From: Parietichytrium sp. I65-24A | Taxonomy: Eukaryota; Sar; Bigyra; Thraustochytrida; Thraustochytriidae | Direction: 5' to 3' | NCBI GenBank assembly: GCA_012862575.1 | Contig: BLSF01000014.1 | Location: forward strand, 124,001 to 188,000 | DNA: 64,000 bases | In this document: positions 29,179 to 46,379 of the stretch, one piece after another | How the letters are laid out: each line of letters starts with the position of its first letter | How positions within the stretch are numbered: position 1 is the first letter of the stretch | The notes under the pieces: generated by a model | Databases searched by the model: none | The model's input: the letters and a program-made list of their open reading frames with translations, nothing else | What the model was told of the DNA's origin: nothing | Made by a program: the position numbers and the translations under genes

Positions 29179-32100
29179 ATGAGTGGGAACAGCAACAGTG
29201 ACGATGAGTGCATCCGCGTAGACCACACCGCCTTTGAGATTCTGCGCTTGGACGCCGATAGCCAGCGAATCGATGACGCGACTGTCACCAGCGCTTTTGA
29301 AGCTGCCAAGGAACGTGCATCCGACGATGACGACCTTCGGCGTATCCGTGAAGCGCATGAGACACTTTGTACCGAAGCCCGCAGGAATGGGTACAGGCTT
29401 GCACTGGAGCTTGCGTCCGGTCGCAGTAGACCGAGGTCGTCCAGTTTGTCATCGCCGGGCGCCGCTCCTGAGGACGACGGGTCAAGCATCGATTTGAAAG
29501 GTTCTAGACCAGAAGGAATGCATAGGCACGGTGGGTTGGCAGAAATCCTTTTCAGCAGAGACGCTCCGTACGGCCGCTTGTTGAACGCTGTCTATAAAGT
29601 CCGTGGCGACTTTACTCTGCAACTGCCGCAAATCATTGTGTGTGGCATGGAGAGCGAAGGCAAATCCAGCACCCTGGAGCGTATCGCCATGCGGAATGTG
29701 TTCCCGCGTGATTCTGGGTTTTGCACGCGACTCCCGATCCGACTTATGCTGCGATGTAACAAGCATCAAAATAAAGTCACCATTCGGTTGAAGAATACTG
29801 AGACCAACTCGGTCGTTCAAGAGCCCGAGTCGTACATATGCGAGACAGGTGATCAGATGGACGAGCCGTTTGCCACACGAGTGTCTGCCATCATTCAGAA
29901 CTTCATCAAGCAACAGCATCCGGATGACAATGGCACCAATGTCATCATTGACCACGAGGTGCAGGTGGAGATTTGCGCGCCGTCTGTCCCAACCATCGAT
30001 CTGGTCGACCTGCCAGGGATCGTCGCTGCGCCAGCAAACGCCAAGCGAGACACCGAGGAGCTTACGCGGAAGATGCTCCGGGTCCCTCATACTTTGGTGC
30101 TGGCAGTGGTTTCCGGAACTGCTCGTCGGATCCGAAGCAACGGCATCTGGCCGTTCCTTCTGGAAGCGGGGAACCCAGTGGTAGTGGCGTTGACAATGGT
30201 GGATGAGCCTGGTGGAGACCGTGATTTGTTCAGCCGCATCAAAATGGAAGGCATTGACGTCCCGGATGATGTAAATATCACCTCTGTTATTCCACTGGTG
30301 AATCGCAATTCATGTGATGGTATTTCTGATACTCGTTCCCTCACGCACTCAATCACTCGTGAGCGAGAAGTGTTGCAGGAAAAATGCGAGAAGCATGGCG
30401 TTAAATATGATGAAGCAAAGCATGGGCTGATCGGTCTACTCGGGGCTTGCAACGAAATGCTCACACGATACATGCGCGAGACTTGGGTGAGTAATGAACT
30501 CGAGCGCGCACAAATCGAACTTCAACGTCTGTTTACACAAATCTGGGACCTCGGTTCTCGACCAGATTGCGTGTCAGTGGAAGATGTCCAAGGGGAGGTA
30601 TTGGGTGGGTTTGAGAAACTACGCAATGTGCCGACGACTGCTTGGCTTGATGCATTTGATCAAAACGTCGAGCTGGAAAGGGATGGTGTTGTTGTAGAGC
30701 AAGAAGTAATTGATCTCCCATTGGTGAAGCGGATGAAAATGGCAAGGGATATCATCAGTGAGACGGACGAGCAGATCGAGCAGGTGATCGAGTCTTCCTG
30801 GGCCGTCGTGCGCTCGCGAGTTCTAGAGAACGTGATCGAATCGTCCGGATTGCCCTTGAACATTTCCCGTTTTGCACGTCTGTGCGAGACCATCGAAACA
30901 GCTATTGACAATTTCTTCCAGTGGGAGAGAGACGCTGTCACAAAGGCTTTGAAAGACAGAATCTCCGAAATGGTCAGCGACCTAATGACGAGTGATTTGG
31001 ACCGGGTGGATATAGACGAAATAGTCAAGGCGTTGAAGAAAGAAGGTGGCAAGATCATCCTGCGCTGCACTGTCTCTCGGCGGCAATTTCTTGAGGAGAT
31101 TCTTGAGGCTGCCAAGCGTTGCTCCGGCCTCGAGGAAACCACATCGGTTGCTCAGTCCAGGCAAGCGCTGGAGGAGAAGGTAGAGGCAGTGTATTCTGCG
31201 AAAGATGCGCTTTTGGAGTTGCGCATAGGTGCCAGTGTGGATGGTTGCGGCGCGAACACTACCGTCGAGGGGCGACTTTTTGAGGCCGCAAGGTGTTTTG
31301 CAACTGGATGTAAAGGTATTCAGGATCTCGTGGATGAAGAGAAACTGCGGGTATTTGCTCCTGACCACCTTCGCAAAGTAGTTGGGCTCTTTGAAAACGT
31401 GGAAGGCCCAGACGAGGTCATTTCACTCATGAGAGAACATCTAGCAAGTGTTGGCATTCAGATGAAAGGATGTCAAATGTTGGGGAAATTCGCTGATGAC
31501 ATCAATCTCGGCGAGAACCTTGTCAACCAAGTTGCTGTTGAGCGGATCATCGCGGCCATGCAAGCGCATTTGGGGAATGCTGGTCTGCAAGAGATTGCAT
31601 GCGCAGCGCTTGCAGATCTTGCTGAGAATTCTGAAATCCAAATAGCATTGATGGAACAAAACGCTGGCGAGCGGATCGTCGCGGCCATGCAAACGCATCC
31701 GGATATTGCGGGCGTCCAAAAGCAGGCATGCGGGGCACTTTATGAGCTCGCTGCGAATACTGGGAATAAACTCAAATTGATGGCACAAAACGCTGGTGAA
31801 CGGATCGTCGCGGCCATGCAAGCGCATCTGGGGAATGCCGAGGTCCAGAGACTAGCATGTGGGGCTCTTTGGAATCTCGCTATGCATGCTGAAAACAAAA
31901 TCAAATTGATGGAACAAAACGCTGGCGAGCGGATCGTCGCGGCCATGCAAGCGCATCCGGGGAATGCCGAGGTCCAGAAACTAGCATGTGGGGCGCTTTG
32001 GAATCTGGCTGAAAATTCTGGCAACGAAAAAGAATTGATGGAACTAAACGCTGGTGAGCGGATCGTCGCGGCCATGAAAGCGCATCTGGGGAGTGCCGAG

Positions 32101-32403
32101 GTCCAGAGACTAGCATGCGGGGCGCTTTGGAATCTAGGTGAAGATTCTGGAAACCAAATAGAATTGGTGGCACTAAACGCTGGTGATCGGATCGTCGCGG
32201 CCATGCAAGCGCATCTCGGGAATGTCGGGGTCCAGAGTCTAGCATGCGCAGCGCTTTCGAATCTCGCTGTGAATGCTGAAAATCAAATTAAATCGATGGA
32301 ACAAAACGCTGCTGAGCGAATCCTCGCGGCCATGCAAGCGCATCCGGGGAATGCCGAGTTTCAATACTACGCGAAATTAGCCTTCGAAAAGCTTTCTTCA
32401 TAG
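29179..32403 (+). CDS. J-like / dynamin-family GTPase / armadillo-repeat fusion protein
   Basis: The product has 1074 residues from the ATG at 29179; the in-frame TTG at 29050 is ignored. Residues about 12-75 (TAFEILRLDADSQ, then LRRIREAHETL) look like a degenerate J-domain without the HPD motif. A dynamin-type GTPase follows: P-loop GMESEGKSST from 156, switch region GFCTRLPI, DLPG at 277-280, and a G4-like TMVD at 339-342, where dynamins usually have TKxD. The middle part (about 430-780) is helical and stalk-like. The C-terminus (about 745-1074) consists of eight armadillo-type repeats of 43 residues, the last seven nearly identical. Dynamins remodel membranes with GTP. The target membrane is unknown, and the usual PH or GED regions are not recognised. 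The G4 Met for Lys change may alter nucleotide specificity. Single exon. Confidence 0.85.
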   Translation: MSGNSNSDDECIRVDHTAFEILRLDADSQRIDDATVTSAFEAAKERASDDDDLRRIREAHETLCTEARRNGYRLALELASGRSRPRSSSLSSPGAAPEDDGSSIDLKGSRPEGMHRHGGLAEILFSRDAPYGRLLNAVYKVRGDFTLQLPQIIVCGMESEGKSSTLERIAMRNVFPRDSGFCTRLPIRLMLRCNKHQNKVTIRLKNTETNSVVQEPESYICETGDQMDEPFATRVSAIIQNFIKQQHPDDNGTNVIIDHEVQVEICAPSVPTIDLVDLPGIVAAPANAKRDTEELTRKMLRVPHTLVLAVVSGTARRIRSNGIWPFLLEAGNPVVVALTMVDEPGGDRDLFSRIKMEGIDVPDDVNITSVIPLVNRNSCDGISDTRSLTHSITREREVLQEKCEKHGVKYDEAKHGLIGLLGACNEMLTRYMRETWVSNELERAQIELQRLFTQIWDLGSRPDCVSVEDVQGEVLGGFEKLRNVPTTAWLDAFDQNVELERDGVVVEQEVIDLPLVKRMKMARDIISETDEQIEQVIESSWAVVRSRVLENVIESSGLPLNISRFARLCETIETAIDNFFQWERDAVTKALKDRISEMVSDLMTSDLDRVDIDEIVKALKKEGGKIILRCTVSRRQFLEEILEAAKRCSGLEETTSVAQSRQALEEKVEAVYSAKDALLELRIGASVDGCGANTTVEGRLFEAARCFATGCKGIQDLVDEEKLRVFAPDHLRKVVGLFENVEGPDEVISLMREHLASVGIQMKGCQMLGKFADDINLGENLVNQVAVERIIAAMQAHLGNAGLQEIACAALADLAENSEIQIALMEQNAGERIVAAMQTHPDIAGVQKQACGALYELAANTGNKLKLMAQNAGERIVAAMQAHLGNAEVQRLACGALWNLAMHAENKIKLMEQNAGERIVAAMQAHPGNAEVQKLACGALWNLAENSGNEKELMELNAGERIVAAMKAHLGSAEVQRLACGALWNLGEDSGNQIELVALNAGDRIVAAMQAHLGNVGVQSLACAALSNLAVNAENQIKSMEQNAAERILAAMQAHPGNAEFQYYAKLAFEKLSS
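31540..32403 (+). repeat. Seven 129-bp coding tandem repeats (armadillo type)
   Basis: Units begin at 31540, 31669, 31798, 31927, 32056, 32185 and 32314 with an exact 129-bp period; the last is truncated by the stop codon. Each encodes ERIVAAMQAHxGNAxVQ, then LACGALxNLA and NQIKLMEQNAG. The units are similar at DNA level, including silent positions (GAGCGGATCGTCGCGGCCAT recurs). Unlike the old PEX14-module array, these were therefore duplicated or homogenised recently. Confidence 0.92.
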
Positions 32404-38387: not shown

Positions 38388-40067
38388 TCATGTGTACACA
38401 ACCCGAACACCAGGTATGGCGTTCTTCGAGGCGGGCATAGGACGTACGACAGTTGCTCTCGGAACATCATCAATGTACTCGGTCTCGAGCTCGACTTGCA
38501 CCAGTTCCACCTTGGGGACTCCTGCTCCGTTGTCCCCTTGCTCTTCGAGCGGAAAAGTCGGCCTTTCGAGTTTCTTCCGTTTCGTGATGCGGCAGCAGAG
38601 AAAGACCCCCAAAGAGAGGATGGCAAATCCAACAACAGCAAAGCCAATAATGACACCAATGTAGCTGTCTCCAGAGTCCTTGCCGCCATCCTTCTTGCCT
38701 TCAGAAGCATGGGATGAGGTTGGAGTGCTAGTTTTGGTGTCGCGTGAACTAATTGTCGAAAAGTAGGTATCGACGTCCGTGCTGTAAAAGGTACCTTTTT
38801 CGCATCGAGAGTAATCTTCCAAAACATTTAGGTCTGGAGGACAGTACGCAGCAGTGTCGGGGCTCAAGCAGACGCAAGAGTCTTGGAGGGGTGCGGAAGC
38901 GTAAACATCTCCATTCTCGAGCTTGCTGCTGATACTCCAGACGTAAGCGACGTCCCCAGTTCCGCATGACACCTCGCAGTCAGACGTGCTCGCCGAAGTC
39001 AGAGAGGAAATGAAGCTCTCAGTTAAAGTAGAAGTTACGCCAGCGGAAAACACAATTTCAGAGTCGTCCTCAGAAGAGTCTGCAAGGACCCGCCGTGAAC
39101 CGATCCAAGTGTAGTAGGCTGCAGGCAAACTTAAAGACGAGCGAATTAGGGCGGACTCTACTGAAGATGAAGAGCGACTGATCCGCGACTGCCTGCTTGA
39201 AAGTGCTTCCGTGGCCGAGTCCGTAGTGACGAGGACAGAAGCTGACGACTCACTTGCAAGACTCCAGCCTGCGACTGGTGCCACAGGGCAAATCGCGGTG
39301 ATGTCCTGCACCTTCAAAGCGTTTATTGGCGTCGCATCAGAGGAGAACCCAAGGCTCGGCAAGAAGCTGTTTCGGAGGTAGAAAAACATCGCGTAGGCGA
39401 AGCAATACCTGTCTGAGCCTGTGGAGGAATCGTATGACCCTGACAAGGATAGATAGTTACTCCGGTCAGAACAAGATTTTAGCGCTGATGTATCAAATCC
39501 CCAAGCTTCAAGACTGTCGCTGGAGCGAAGCATGTATCCCGCTTTAAAGCGAAAGCTAGCTGTCTCCCAGGTCTCAAGCATTTCATCCCTTGCAGCGTTG
39601 CGCAAGACACATGCCTCCATCTCGTCTATCGCGTCTTGGGTGTCGTCCAGCGACAAAATGGCACCAGCTGCATTCGTGGGATAGCTTGTTGGATAGCTTG
39701 TCGAAAGCGTCGTTGGGTAATCTGTCGGAGAGGAGGTGGGGTAGTTCGTTGGTGGCTCCGTGGGGTGACTCGTAGGTCGACTTGTGGGTGCCTCAGTGCA
39801 TTGCCAGCAAAGATAGCACCTCTTTCTACCAAACTGTTTCCACTCTGAGATCGAGTTGTAGTCCTCTTCGCACTCCTCGTCGCAGCTGTAACAGGTGTTC
39901 GTTGCCACCTCAGAAGACTTGCATCGAGTAGTCAACGCTGTTTCCCACTTCCCGGAACCCCCGCCGCAGGTCTCTACCGACGTCTCCGCCGCCTTTGCCC
40001 CTGCCAGCGCCATTGCCATTGCCATTGCCAGCGCCGCCACTATCAGCCCCGCTCTCAGCCTCCCCAT
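38388..40067 (-). CDS. Type I membrane protein: Cys-rich head, Pro/Thr stalk, cytosolic tail
   Basis: The product has 559 residues, starts with ATG and is a single exon. A signal peptide (LIVAALAMAMAMALAGAKA) covers about 1-27. A Cys-rich module (about 34-92; CYSCDEECEED and CYLCWQC) is followed by a Pro/Thr/Ser stalk of PTxx repeats (about 93-130), as seen in algal and diatom cell-surface proteins. The central 330 residues are Ser/Thr-rich with scattered Cys. A single transmembrane helix (IGVIIGFAVVGFAILSLGVF) lies near 468-490, followed by CCRITKRKK and a cytosolic tail of about 65 residues. It is probably a cell-surface or secretory-pathway protein. No enzymatic domain or named family is recognised. 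The next gene rightwards on the same strand is also a membrane protein with a signal peptide. Confidence 0.78.
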   Translation of the reverse strand: MGRLRAGLIVAALAMAMAMALAGAKAAETSVETCGGGSGKWETALTTRCKSSEVATNTCYSCDEECEEDYNSISEWKQFGRKRCYLCWQCTEAPTSRPTSHPTEPPTNYPTSSPTDYPTTLSTSYPTSYPTNAAGAILSLDDTQDAIDEMEACVLRNAARDEMLETWETASFRFKAGYMLRSSDSLEAWGFDTSALKSCSDRSNYLSLSGSYDSSTGSDRYCFAYAMFFYLRNSFLPSLGFSSDATPINALKVQDITAICPVAPVAGWSLASESSASVLVTTDSATEALSSRQSRISRSSSSVESALIRSSLSLPAAYYTWIGSRRVLADSSEDDSEIVFSAGVTSTLTESFISSLTSASTSDCEVSCGTGDVAYVWSISSKLENGDVYASAPLQDSCVCLSPDTAAYCPPDLNVLEDYSRCEKGTFYSTDVDTYFSTISSRDTKTSTPTSSHASEGKKDGGKDSGDSYIGVIIGFAVVGFAILSLGVFLCCRITKRKKLERPTFPLEEQGDNGAGVPKVELVQVELETEYIDDVPRATVVRPMPASKNAIPGVRVVYT

Positions 40068-41724: not shown

Positions 41725-43623
41725 TTAGACGTTGCCTCCACCGCAGCAACTTTCCTCCTTTACAGCGCGAGGTGGGGAGGAGGAATTGTTGTCGCAAATC
41801 CTCTCCACGTCAATAGACGATGCGCTATCTGTCTCGCTATTTTTGTCATTGTCTTTCACAACCTTCGTACTCGAGTGGCGATGCCCGCCTTCATGAATAT
41901 CCTCCATGAATTGACAGCAAGGATCGCTCTGCTCACCAACATCGTCGCTGGAGCCGCTAATTTTCATGTTGAAAATTGCGTGACCGGTAGCGAGCCCGAG
42001 TACGATTGCGATAAATACCCAAATTGAGTACGTCATGGCCAATAGCATCGCAAAGTACCCGAAAGTAACTTGCACGATGTAAAGGGTTAAATAGAAGGCT
42101 TTTTCAAAGAGAATGTGACTTTTTACGTGTCGTTTGGCGTTTCGCTTGCGGCTCCACACAACAAACTCCGTAAAAACACCAAAAAAAAAGGTGCCAATCA
42201 CTCCTCCTGCAAACTTGCCCTCGGTGTCAAGGATCCAATCTGGAAACAGCAAAACCACGCAGCTCTCGGCGGGGTCGACGCCAGTAAACCCGAGCATATA
42301 CATTGATGTCCCGTATCCATTGCAAATGCCTTCGGTATTCTCCTCAGGTGTTTCACCGGTGCATTGAATGACACACGTTTCGCAATGGTCATCGCCTGGC
42401 TCCCAGATGGTCCCGTCGGGCGAAATGCACTCGAAGTCCTCTTCCGGAGTGTCCGTTGTGCAGCCAGAGCTGTTGCTCCAAGCCCTGCATTGCATCCAGC
42501 AATACCAATAGCCCTCCTCGCATGCAATGGCTTCATCTGCAAGATGGCGACCGTGCGAGCACCCAACTTGCCCAAATGCCGTGTCCGCGTCGCGTGTAGA
42601 TTTGTCCACTGTTGCGCCTACTTTTGCCTTGCGGATCTCCGAAAACGGAATTCCCGAAGCTTCGTGGATGGCGTCTTGTGGTGGAAGCATCATGCGGCCA
42701 TACCATAGACGCAAGAGCTTCTGCTTGTCGTCCAGTTCTTCGCACACATCGTGCAACCTGAGAGAATGTGGAACACTTCGCATAAACGGGCAACTTCCAA
42801 ACCAGTCCGAAGCGCCCTCGCCAATCATGAAGACGAGGACATTCCCGTCATCAGCGAACGACGGTGACACTACGTTTCCGGTGGGGTCCTCCACATAGAA
42901 ACCCGCGTTCGAGCTCACTTGGTGCAGACGCTCTCCGCTCGTGGAGAGAAACATGGAAGGGACAAATGAGATGAACAATCCATCGTCCGTGTGCAGCTCC
43001 AGCGTTGCAGATTCCGAGTCCTCTTGGCAGTCCGCCTCGTACCCGTGAAAGTGCTCCAAGTGCTCCCCAGCATGCAGAAATTGCCAAGCAGAGTTGTAGT
43101 TACTGGCGCCACTCAATGACCTGGCCAGCGGACGTGCTTGCGTGAAAGTTGAGGAAGACCGGCAGATATTATCGAGCTGATGAAACACCAAGTTGGCCAC
43201 ACGGGTAATGGTGTTTCTAAAATTCTGGCTGGCCGCCTCAAATTCCTCGCATTTGGTTGGTACCTCGCCGTCCGGGAAAAGCGAGTGCATTTTGAGATCA
43301 AACGAAGTCCCAAGATGAGTGGCCGACGCGAAAGACTTGCGGAAGGTCCCATCTTTCAGGCCAAACGCTCTGGCTCCATTCTGCGCCTGAAGCATGCACT
43401 CCCCCGCGAGTGCCAGCACGGACTCCCTCGCCTTCGCAAACCCCGGAATATTCCTCACCTGGAACATACCATCCCACGCTAGCACGGACTTGACATGCGA
43501 TTGCGCCCCATCGTCGACCAGTTCCACAAAGTCGATCTCCGGCAAGTCGTATCCGTGCGTGCTCTCCGCGCACAGCAGCACCAAAGCCGCTGCCAACGCC
43601 ACTATGGCGGCCGTCCCTCGCAT
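41725..43623 (-). CDS. Secreted 2OG-Fe(II) oxygenase-like domain fused to a Ctr-type copper transporter
   Basis: The product has 632 residues, starts with ATG and is a single exon. A signal peptide covers about 1-24. Residues about 30-330 resemble the isopenicillin-N-synthase-type double-stranded beta helix: a HxD pair at H211/D213 (LHTDDGLFISF) and a distal His at 286 (SVPHSLRL) would form the iron triad. A Cys-rich linker (about 368-436) has CxxC pairs. The C-terminal 190 residues look like a Ctr copper transporter: an MxM motif at 441/443 (MYMLGF), FPDW before helix 1 and TEFVVWSRKR after it, MLLAM (MxxxM) at 526-530 in helix 2, and GxxxG at 543-547 in helix 3. The Cys-rich tail (DPCCQF, final CCGGG) may bind Cu. 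The oxygenase part would face outside or the lumen. Whether it is catalytic is unknown. Confidence 0.83.
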   Translation of the reverse strand: MRGTAAIVALAAALVLLCAESTHGYDLPEIDFVELVDDGAQSHVKSVLAWDGMFQVRNIPGFAKARESVLALAGECMLQAQNGARAFGLKDGTFRKSFASATHLGTSFDLKMHSLFPDGEVPTKCEEFEAASQNFRNTITRVANLVFHQLDNICRSSSTFTQARPLARSLSGASNYNSAWQFLHAGEHLEHFHGYEADCQEDSESATLELHTDDGLFISFVPSMFLSTSGERLHQVSSNAGFYVEDPTGNVVSPSFADDGNVLVFMIGEGASDWFGSCPFMRSVPHSLRLHDVCEELDDKQKLLRLWYGRMMLPPQDAIHEASGIPFSEIRKAKVGATVDKSTRDADTAFGQVGCSHGRHLADEAIACEEGYWYCWMQCRAWSNSSGCTTDTPEEDFECISPDGTIWEPGDDHCETCVIQCTGETPEENTEGICNGYGTSMYMLGFTGVDPAESCVVLLFPDWILDTEGKFAGGVIGTFFFGVFTEFVVWSRKRNAKRHVKSHILFEKAFYLTLYIVQVTFGYFAMLLAMTYSIWVFIAIVLGLATGHAIFNMKISGSSDDVGEQSDPCCQFMEDIHEGGHRHSSTKVVKDNDKNSETDSASSIDVERICDNNSSSPPRAVKEESCCGGGNV

Positions 43624-44822: not shown

Positions 44823-46379
44823 ATGGGGTTGAAAGCATGGGGAGCAGAGGCCGTGGCAAACGCTCTTGAGACGGCGGCTGGCTGGCTGACGGGTGAAGCG
44901 GAGCGCAAGGTAGGGCAAGAATACTTTGAAGGGAATTATAGCCCGGTCCACGGCGACCTGGTGGTGCGAGCATGTGAAATGAAAGTCGCTGGGGAGCTTC
45001 CCAAAGATTTGCGCGGGAGTTTTCTAAGAATTGGTCCGAATCAGGTTTTTCGGCCCGATGGAGGCTATCATCTCTTCGACGGAGATGGAATGTGCCACTT
45101 GATTCAGTTGGATGGAGAGAGCGGAGAGATTGTTTACCAAAGACACCAGATCAGGACGGCCAAACTACAACAGGAGGAGCAGAAAAAACGATCCTTTTTC
45201 CCTGCGATTGGGCAGCTCGTCGGGTACTCTGGACTGCTGCGAATACTTGCGTTCCAGACTCGGGTCGCCGCAGGACTTGCCAAGCCGGGATCCACGGCAA
45301 ACACCGCAATGGTCGCTCATGCAGGGAAGCTCTTGGCATTGAATGAAGCCGATGCGCCGTATGTTCTTTCCCTTGACAATGACAACTTGCTCAAAACGGA
45401 CGGCATTCTCGATATCCCGAAGATCACTCCTTTTACGGCGCACCCAAAGGTGGACCCAACAACCGGATACATGCACGCGTTCGGCTATCAGCCCCAAAAG
45501 CAACCGTTCCTCAAGTACTATGTGATGGACCCTACGGGCAGCCTCGTCCACACCTTGGATATTCCTCTTCCGGAGCCTATCATGATGCACGACTTTGCTA
45601 TTACCGAAAACTATGTCCTATTTTTGGACTTGAACCTAGTTTTTCGAGCCGAAGAAATGATTCGTTCAAAGACGCTTCCATTTGTCTTCGACCAAAAGAA
45701 GCAGGCAAGGATTGGGATCATGCACAAGATGGAGACCGACCCTGACAAGATCAAGTGGATTCACACGGACCCGCACATGGTCTTTCACGTGATGAATGCA
45801 TGGGAGTCCGGCCCGGACACCATTGAAATGGTCGCTTGCAAGATGGACGAGTTTGAGCTTTCGCTTTCTGCTCTTCAAGACAAACCGTCCGACGCCGAGC
45901 GAAACAAGCTGGTCCACTACAACATTGACTTGGCCCAATCGAAGGTGGATATGTCGTTGATTTTAGACGGAAACCCAAGCATACTCGACTTTCCCTTGGT
46001 GACTCCGGAATTAACTGGTAGAAAATCTACGTTCGGGTACGTCTGTGCGTTCGAGCCGGGCGTTGCAGTCGGCGTTTGCAAACTGCATAAAGTAAATCTC
46101 GACACCCATGCGGTGTCTACGATCGAATTTGGTCCTGGGAAACTCGGAGGGGAGTGCTTTTTCGCGCCTAGAAGCACGGACAGTCGCCGTAGCGAGGACG
46201 ACGGATACCTGATGACCTTTACTTTTGACGGCTCCTCCCAACGGTCGGAGTTTAATGTCTGGGATGCGTACACCATGTCATCATCTCCAATTTTCAAATG
46301 CGAGCTTCCTTCTCGCGTACCCTTTGGCTTCCATTCCCTATTTGTCCCTCTCGGCTCCGCTCCGCTCTCTAAACTGTAG
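44823..46379 (+). CDS. Carotenoid cleavage oxygenase (RPE65/CCD family)
   Basis: The product has 518 residues from the ATG at 44823; the GTG at 44796 is ignored. Single exon. The four iron-coordinating histidines are H207 (AHPKVDPTTG), H256 (MMHDFAIT), H322 (VFHVMNAWE) and H504 (FGFHSLFVP). The N-terminal LRGSFLRIGPNQ, FDGDGM and NTAMVAHAGKLLALNE segments are typical of the family. It cleaves a double bond of a carotenoid or apocarotenoid with O2, giving aldehydes or ketones. Which bond is cut cannot be told from sequence. There is no obvious transit peptide ahead of MGLKAWGAEAV, although an N-terminal amphipathic helix is possible, so cytosolic or membrane-associated action is as likely as plastid. 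Its presence fits a photosynthetic organism but is not proof of one. Confidence 0.94.
   Translation: MGLKAWGAEAVANALETAAGWLTGEAERKVGQEYFEGNYSPVHGDLVVRACEMKVAGELPKDLRGSFLRIGPNQVFRPDGGYHLFDGDGMCHLIQLDGESGEIVYQRHQIRTAKLQQEEQKKRSFFPAIGQLVGYSGLLRILAFQTRVAAGLAKPGSTANTAMVAHAGKLLALNEADAPYVLSLDNDNLLKTDGILDIPKITPFTAHPKVDPTTGYMHAFGYQPQKQPFLKYYVMDPTGSLVHTLDIPLPEPIMMHDFAITENYVLFLDLNLVFRAEEMIRSKTLPFVFDQKKQARIGIMHKMETDPDKIKWIHTDPHMVFHVMNAWESGPDTIEMVACKMDEFELSLSALQDKPSDAERNKLVHYNIDLAQSKVDMSLILDGNPSILDFPLVTPELTGRKSTFGYVCAFEPGVAVGVCKLHKVNLDTHAVSTIEFGPGKLGGECFFAPRSTDSRRSEDDGYLMTFTFDGSSQRSEFNVWDAYTMSSSPIFKCELPSRVPFGFHSLFVPLGSAPLSKL

Follow-up and report, generated by a model that had tools for sequence, protein, structure and literature searches.

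A Ctr copper channel carrying an IPNS-like oxygenase-type domain and a cysteine-rich module in one reading frame

Introduction

As a rule, Ctr proteins are small channels and depend on separate reductases to supply their Cu(I); both their topology and their trimeric assembly are known for the family. The sites of 2OG/IPNS-type enzymes are O2- and Fe-dependent; 2OG is unlikely to be abundant outside cells, and a position outside the cytosol is an unusual one for the IPNS-like family.

According to the available portions of two articles, an MxxxM-x12-GxxxG signature is present in all CTR proteins (PMC9502191), and the N-terminus of Ctr/COPT/SLC31 transporters is rich in Met and His (PMC9502191, PMC8867124); hCTR1 has His clusters for binding Cu(II) and Met clusters that coordinate Cu(I) (PMC8867124). 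Only a loose precedent is offered by the fungal isocyanide synthase systems (the crm and xan clusters; PMC5974471), in which crm expression goes along with ctrC, a copper transporter gene, and hybrids between isocyanide synthases and PF02668 dioxygenase domains are reported. These systems differ from the present one: the dioxygenase belongs to another family, its partner is an isocyanide synthase rather than a transporter, and a copper response of the dioxygenase hybrid itself is not evident in the available portion of that paper.

The gene described here lies in the window, the 64,000-nucleotide stretch of DNA that was analysed, and joins parts that are each of a known kind in a combination that is new to us. 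Among the matches listed from open-licence PMC full text (titles and abstract openings), there was no report of an oxygenase–Ctr fusion, which is weak evidence of absence, and no open-licence full text pairing ctr copper transporter with 2OG-Fe was found.

The gene and its product

As a preliminary description had proposed, the gene at 41725–43623 is a single frame; it lies on the minus strand, has 632 codons and a stop, and requires no intron; two in-frame stops (TAG TGA) lie directly upstream of its ATG, and the plus-strand reading of the same interval is interrupted by stops. Residues 1–24 (43552–43623; this and all following features of the gene are on the minus strand) form a signal-peptide-like N-terminus, judged from hydropathy; the mean KD of residues 1–19 is 2.08. 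The oxygenase-like N-domain (IPNS/2OG type) spans residues 26–345 (42589–43548). Within it, H191-F192-H193 (43045–43053) is placed such that H193 lies 18 residues before the His of the HxD metal-ligand motif, H211-T212-D213 (42985–42993); further on are the distal metal His, H286 (42766–42768), and R305-L-W307 (42703–42711).

A Cys-rich module with nine Cys follows at residues 355–421 (42361–42561), and then the Ctr copper channel region, residues 437–551 (41971–42315), with M441-Y-M443 (42295–42303) ahead of the first transmembrane stretch and the signature, here MLLAM-x12-GLATG, at residues 526–547 (41983–42048). Hydropathy places hydrophobic stretches at 471–489, 510–530 and 524–551. The protein ends in a soluble tail with two Cys pairs: C569-C570 (41914–41919), past the last transmembrane stretch, belongs to a PCC motif common to this protein and its paralogue on contig C8, and C626-C627 (41743–41748), near the C-terminus in CCGGG, is absent from that paralogue. 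The motifs cited in the preliminary description (HTD at 211–213, VPH at 284–286, MYM at 441–443, MLLAM at 526–530 and GLATG at 543–547) are all found at those residues. In our best reading, the product is a single membrane protein in which a Ctr Cu(I) channel carries, on its N-terminal side, an IPNS-like, non-haem-metal oxygenase domain followed by a Cys-rich module.

A family of four paralogues

The genome to which the window belongs (42.5 Mb in 172 contigs) holds three further places that match the window protein. One of these paralogues, L006 on contig C8 (544 aa), is 35% identical to it over residues 44–582 (E = 2.3e-63) and has the parts in the identical order, with the same linker Cys pattern and signatures and a Ctr region above the Pfam cut-off (39 versus 25.3 bits). 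In each of the four segments compared between the two genes, the joining Cys module included, the third position of the codon shows less conservation than the first two; identity is higher in the Ctr part (46% over 112 codons) than in the oxygenase part (34% over 263 codons).

These observations bear on the alternative that two neighbouring genes have been joined by an error of assembly or gene reading, which the preliminary description had named as what would undo its proposal. We know of no other fusion of the two families concerned, and this much speaks for an error; the uninterrupted frame, the second locus, which at about 35% identity has the order of parts, the linker Cys pattern and the signatures in common, and a codon-like substitution pattern that runs across the join all speak against it. 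Because two loci this diverged carry the same join, an assembly slip is very unlikely, and an artefactual origin of either kind is scarcely credible to us. The fusion of an oxygenase-type domain to Ctr is real.

The other two paralogues, L005 (contig C55, 502 aa) and L007 (contig C26, 713 aa), retain the N-domain along with most of the Cys pattern, and neither has a Ctr match in Pfam. Seven of the nine Cys of the module are invariant across the four proteins, and the other two are lacking in L007, which bears out the Cys-rich linker noted previously. The tail of L005 consists of a PT-rich stretch (Pfam E = 0.0064, below cut-off) and a short hydrophobic end, whose best 11-residue mean is 2.35 and in which no 19-residue window exceeds 1.6. 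In L007 (844–2985, minus strand), a region with a weak likeness to DOMON comes after the N-domain, and the protein closes with a hydrophobic end: the tail aligns with DOMON at 12% in hhalign (score 25.2, against a mean of 11.3 and a maximum of 18.5 for 60 shuffles), has no DOMON match in Pfam and does not figure in the genome's 10 DOMON matches. Searches of the genome with L007 and with the N-domain of L006 found no further close family member. The N-domain and Cys module are an inherited unit carried on differing tails, and in two of the four copies that tail is a Cu(I) channel.

Relationship of the N-domain to IPNS-like oxygenases

The N-domain belongs to no credible Pfam, NCBIfam or PHROGs family; besides Ctr, the only Pfam row for the window protein is MFS_5 over residues 453–537, below cut-off at E = 0.028. 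A comparison with PDB sequences returned three chains at E values of 0.59–1.5, with no oxygenase among them, and a single-sequence AlphaFold2 model of residues 24–345 had a pLDDT of 35, too low for fold assignment.

Profile–profile comparison within the genome was more revealing. The first set of relatives, A3, comprised six of the seven PF03171 matches, chosen by Pfam, the weakest (L014) being left out. The profile of the four paralogues aligned with A3 at a probability of 80% in hhalign (E = 1.4e-5, score 46.4), well beyond 60 column shuffles (12.9 ± 2.4, maximum 20.4) and 31 fragments taken from the window's other ORFs (maximum 20.1). This result is fragile, falling to 17% without L006, to 45% without L007 and to 0.73% for the window domain alone. 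Taken singly, three members of A3 scored clear of the 31 unrelated fragments (34.5, 29.3 and 27.3), one just above them (21.8) and two within their range (18.6 and 16.5).

A search of the genome with the N-domain of L006 gave three weak matches, on contigs C25 (E = 0.001), C65 (E = 0.4) and C4 (E = 0.8). The C25 and C65 proteins, both of which resemble PF03171 below the Pfam cut-off, made up a second set, A5; the C4 match was not taken. L055, the C25 protein, matches PDB entry 9hdl, a 'Clavaminate synthase-like protein', with E = 7.3e-44. The family profile aligned with A5 at 96.2% (E = 2.4e-9), a figure to be read with the fact that this set, unlike the Pfam-chosen A3, was selected by a search with a family member. 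Against all eight relatives (A3 and A5 together, six of them above the Pfam cut-off), the family profile reached 97.05% (E = 8e-11, score 83); 60 shuffles gave a mean of 13.3 (sd 2.0, maximum 18.2), and the reversed control scored 12.2. The four leave-one-out profiles gave 95.3–97.5% with the same eight. Single members varied more: the window domain, L005, L006 and L007 scored 78.6, 5.7, 82.1 and 81.6%, respectively, against the eight relatives, and 82.9, 1.6, 65.8 and 1.4% against A5. BLASTP aligned the window domain with L055 over 289 columns (E = 6e-6 as a single comparison) and L006 with L055 at E = 2e-8. At a loose setting, the similarity extends over 297 columns and so covers a large part of the oxygenase.

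Both the profile comparisons, with their controls, and BLASTP therefore support homology between the N-domain and 2OG-Fe(II)/IPNS-like oxygenases (PF03171/PF14226), as the preliminary description had suspected from the HxD...H pattern, and the domain would be expected to adopt a double-stranded beta-helix fold. The nearest IPNS-like relatives in the genome are L055 and L056, with 9hdl as their PDB relative. The N-domain is set apart from such enzymes by a signal-like N-terminus and membrane tether, an R-x-W in place of R-x-S/T, the HFH motif, the Cys-rich module and its invisibility to Pfam.

Collections searched beyond this genome were viral and prokaryotic and have little bearing on other eukaryotes. 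Profile A2 gave 19 pattern matches in viral contigs and 58 matches in prokaryotic genome contigs, none of either confirmed; a DNA pattern for YCWMQC hit 29 viral loci, none matching profile A1 or A2; and a search of plasmids returned one match, with E = 6 over 30% of the query. Relatives of a plain 2OG protein (L010) were likewise sought in prokaryotic genome contigs, where none of 147 matches was confirmed. A separate possible fusion, of oxygenase and globin, was seen elsewhere in the genome: an ORF of locus L013 (contig C46, 330878–331156, minus strand, with flanks; ORF at 817–2400, minus) has 2OG-FeII_Oxy (E = 2.1e-9) and Bac_globin (E = 1.7e-18) matches in one frame, with a stretch between the parts that looks hydrophobic by eye.

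The active site

Seven residues, H191, H193, H211, D213, H286, R305 and W307, are invariant in all four paralogues. When the family is aligned with its relatives, the HxD motif, the distal His and the Arg fall on the canonical columns, and H211, D213 and H286 are thus in register with the metal ligands of the oxygenases. The exception is the residue two past the Arg: Ser or Thr in each of the eight aligned relatives from the genome and Thr in 9hdl, it is Trp in every paralogue, and BLASTP aligns this point without a gap between L006 and L055. In canonical enzymes, the residue at this position helps to hold 2OG or the substrate carboxylate. Given that role, the replacement suggests that the 2OG/carboxylate pocket has probably changed, leaving ordinary use of 2OG uncertain; the domain may bind 2OG in an unusual way or may not use it at all. 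Since R-x-W is common to all four proteins, we describe the domain as homologous and IPNS-like rather than as a proven 2OG-dependent oxygenase. We make no claim that H191 and H193 replace the N-x-Y cosubstrate residues, the gap placement between HFH and HxD permitting more than one register.

The copper channel

The Ctr assignment is secure: PF04145 matches with E = 5.8e-14 and 53.3 bits against a cut-off of 25.3, the best-scoring stretch being residues 510–551, and the complete set of Ctr signatures that had been read from the sequence is in place. The likeness to Ctr/COPT/SLC31 transporters comprises hydrophobic stretches fitting three transmembrane segments, as read from hydropathy, an MxM before the first, the MxxxM-x12-GxxxG signature and a Cys pair past the last. 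The difference is at the N-terminus, where a domain of ~320 residues and the Cys module stand in place of the Met/His-rich segment.

Three Ctr places were found in the genome, by a search that may miss intron-split genes. The signature is exact in L006 as in the window protein; the stand-alone Ctr, L001 (1459–2667, minus strand), has a His-rich N-terminal part and MLLAM, and lacks GxxxG at the usual spacing. On this comparison of three, the fused proteins would be good candidates for the working copper importers of the organism.

Ten matches to Ferric_reduct were found in the genome, so that the organism probably has access to Cu(I) through ordinary reduction. We had considered the N-domain as the cupric reductase that Ctr needs; these matches weaken that idea, as the domain need not have such a role. 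At one of the places concerned (contig C45, 91236–92597, plus strand), DOMON and Ferric_reduct matches lie ~0.7 kb apart, each in an 821-aa frame, and this is likely to be a DOMON–ferric reductase fusion.

Location and possible function of the ectodomain

Near the candidate start Met, the best 11-residue mean KD is 3.21 for the window protein, 1.75 for L006, 2.14 for L005 and 1.95 for L007; the plain relatives L055 and L056 give 0.48 and 1.20 at the first Met. The stretch in L006 is modest (4 of 304 domain windows are as high), those of L005 and L007 require an internal Met as the start, and only the window protein, among the four, has a 19-residue segment at the N-terminus that qualifies by hydropathy. 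Together with the Ctr topology, the hydrophobic N-terminus makes it likely that the N-domain resides outside the cell or in a lumen.

On this basis, we favour, tentatively and with a probability of roughly 0.38, a Ctr Cu(I) importer with an oxygenase-type ectodomain that liberates or prepares copper at the pore mouth. The ectodomain would bind a metal at H211/D213/H286 and act beside the pore on copper, or on an organic ligand of copper, either by O2-dependent oxidative chemistry or by binding; the copper would then be handed to the MxM and pass the MxxxM gate as Cu(I). Several points count against it: two of the four paralogues have no Ctr, and the substrate of the N-domain therefore need not be copper-related; with the Ferric_reduct matches at hand, no separate reductase is missing; and 2OG is probably scarce in the place proposed for the domain. 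A more specific proposal, which we regard as distinctly doubtful, is an importer with its own oxidative stripping enzyme: a non-haem oxygenase at the surface, its 2OG pocket rebuilt (R-x-W, HFH), would attack organic copper ligands and release the copper into the Ctr pore, while sister enzymes on other anchors would attack other ligands. If true, metal would be taken up by destruction of its ligands, a route additional to the known reductive one.

The copies without a channel invite a different explanation, namely that the ectodomain is active as a hydroxylase, in a lumen or at the surface, on a substrate (a protein, glycan or small molecule) unrelated to copper, with Ctr as an interchangeable anchor or as a means of placing the enzyme in a copper-handling compartment. 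The recurrence of the N-domain, along with most of the Cys pattern, on a PT-rich tail with a short hydrophobic end (L005) and on a longer one that also ends in a hydrophobic stretch (L007) fits this, as does the retention of the metal residues and the Arg in the whole family. A mere anchor, however, would need neither the full transport signature kept by both fused proteins nor a Ctr part better conserved than the oxygenase part, and we consider the explanation somewhat unlikely. The same copies are awkward for the suggestion that the ectodomain senses oxygen, iron or redox state, and gates the Ctr pore or governs its withdrawal from the membrane, since they have no channel to gate; the O2 and Fe dependence of 2OG/IPNS-type sites and the direct covalent link to the channel are in keeping with such a sensor, to which we give little credence.

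The altered active site could instead be taken to mean that catalysis has been lost, and that the ectodomain now serves as a lid that binds metal. In such a lid, the HxD/H site, together with H191/H193 and the Cys module, would capture Cu(II) or Cu(I) and pass it to the MxM, much as the His and Met clusters of human CTR1 do with their respective copper ions (PMC8867124). The change from R-x-S/T to R-x-W throughout the family and the invariance of H191 and H193 agree with such a lid, whereas the Arg kept by every paralogue and a similarity running along much of the oxygenase length, at the loose setting, go beyond what a simple binding peptide would need; on balance, it appears rather unlikely.

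Should the preferred reading, in which copper is freed or prepared at the pore mouth, be right, the covalent attachment of an oxygenase-type domain to the channel, kept in two diverged copies, would couple import of the metal to chemistry at that point that depends on O2 or on metal binding, and would place an IPNS-like domain outside the cytosol. The fusion would offer a testable system for the release of copper from organic ligands, and the four-member family, with one N-domain on differing tails, a useful natural comparison.

The genome and the surroundings of the gene

The preliminary description had spoken of an alga, a label for which we find no support: the genome has no match to the light-harvesting family PF00504, in an exon-by-exon search of a possibly incomplete assembly that matched one of 14 control genomes (Synechococcus). 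The elicitin family PF00964, taken as a sign of an oomycete, likewise gave no match, in a search that matched no control genome. A PUFA-synthase model gave 13 partial matches below cut-off and is uninformative, as it also had matches in 11 of the 14 control genomes. The genome fits an intron-poor, non-photosynthetic protist; to name a labyrinthulomycete would be guesswork.

Of the ten frames scanned in the window, all of them long and single, nine match Pfam at E ≤ 0.001, though for one of the nine the match is just a sub-cut-off PT repeat. An RPE65/carotenoid oxygenase family gene (44823–46379, plus strand; E = 4.3e-111) points away from the fusion gene. A neighbour of the fusion gene on its own strand (38388–40067, minus) encodes a Cys-rich N-terminal part with CYLCWQC, a PT-rich stretch, the sub-cut-off PT match being its only Pfam match, and a stretch that looks transmembrane by eye. 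Farther away (29179–32403, plus strand), a Dynamin_N domain is followed by armadillo-type repeats in one frame.
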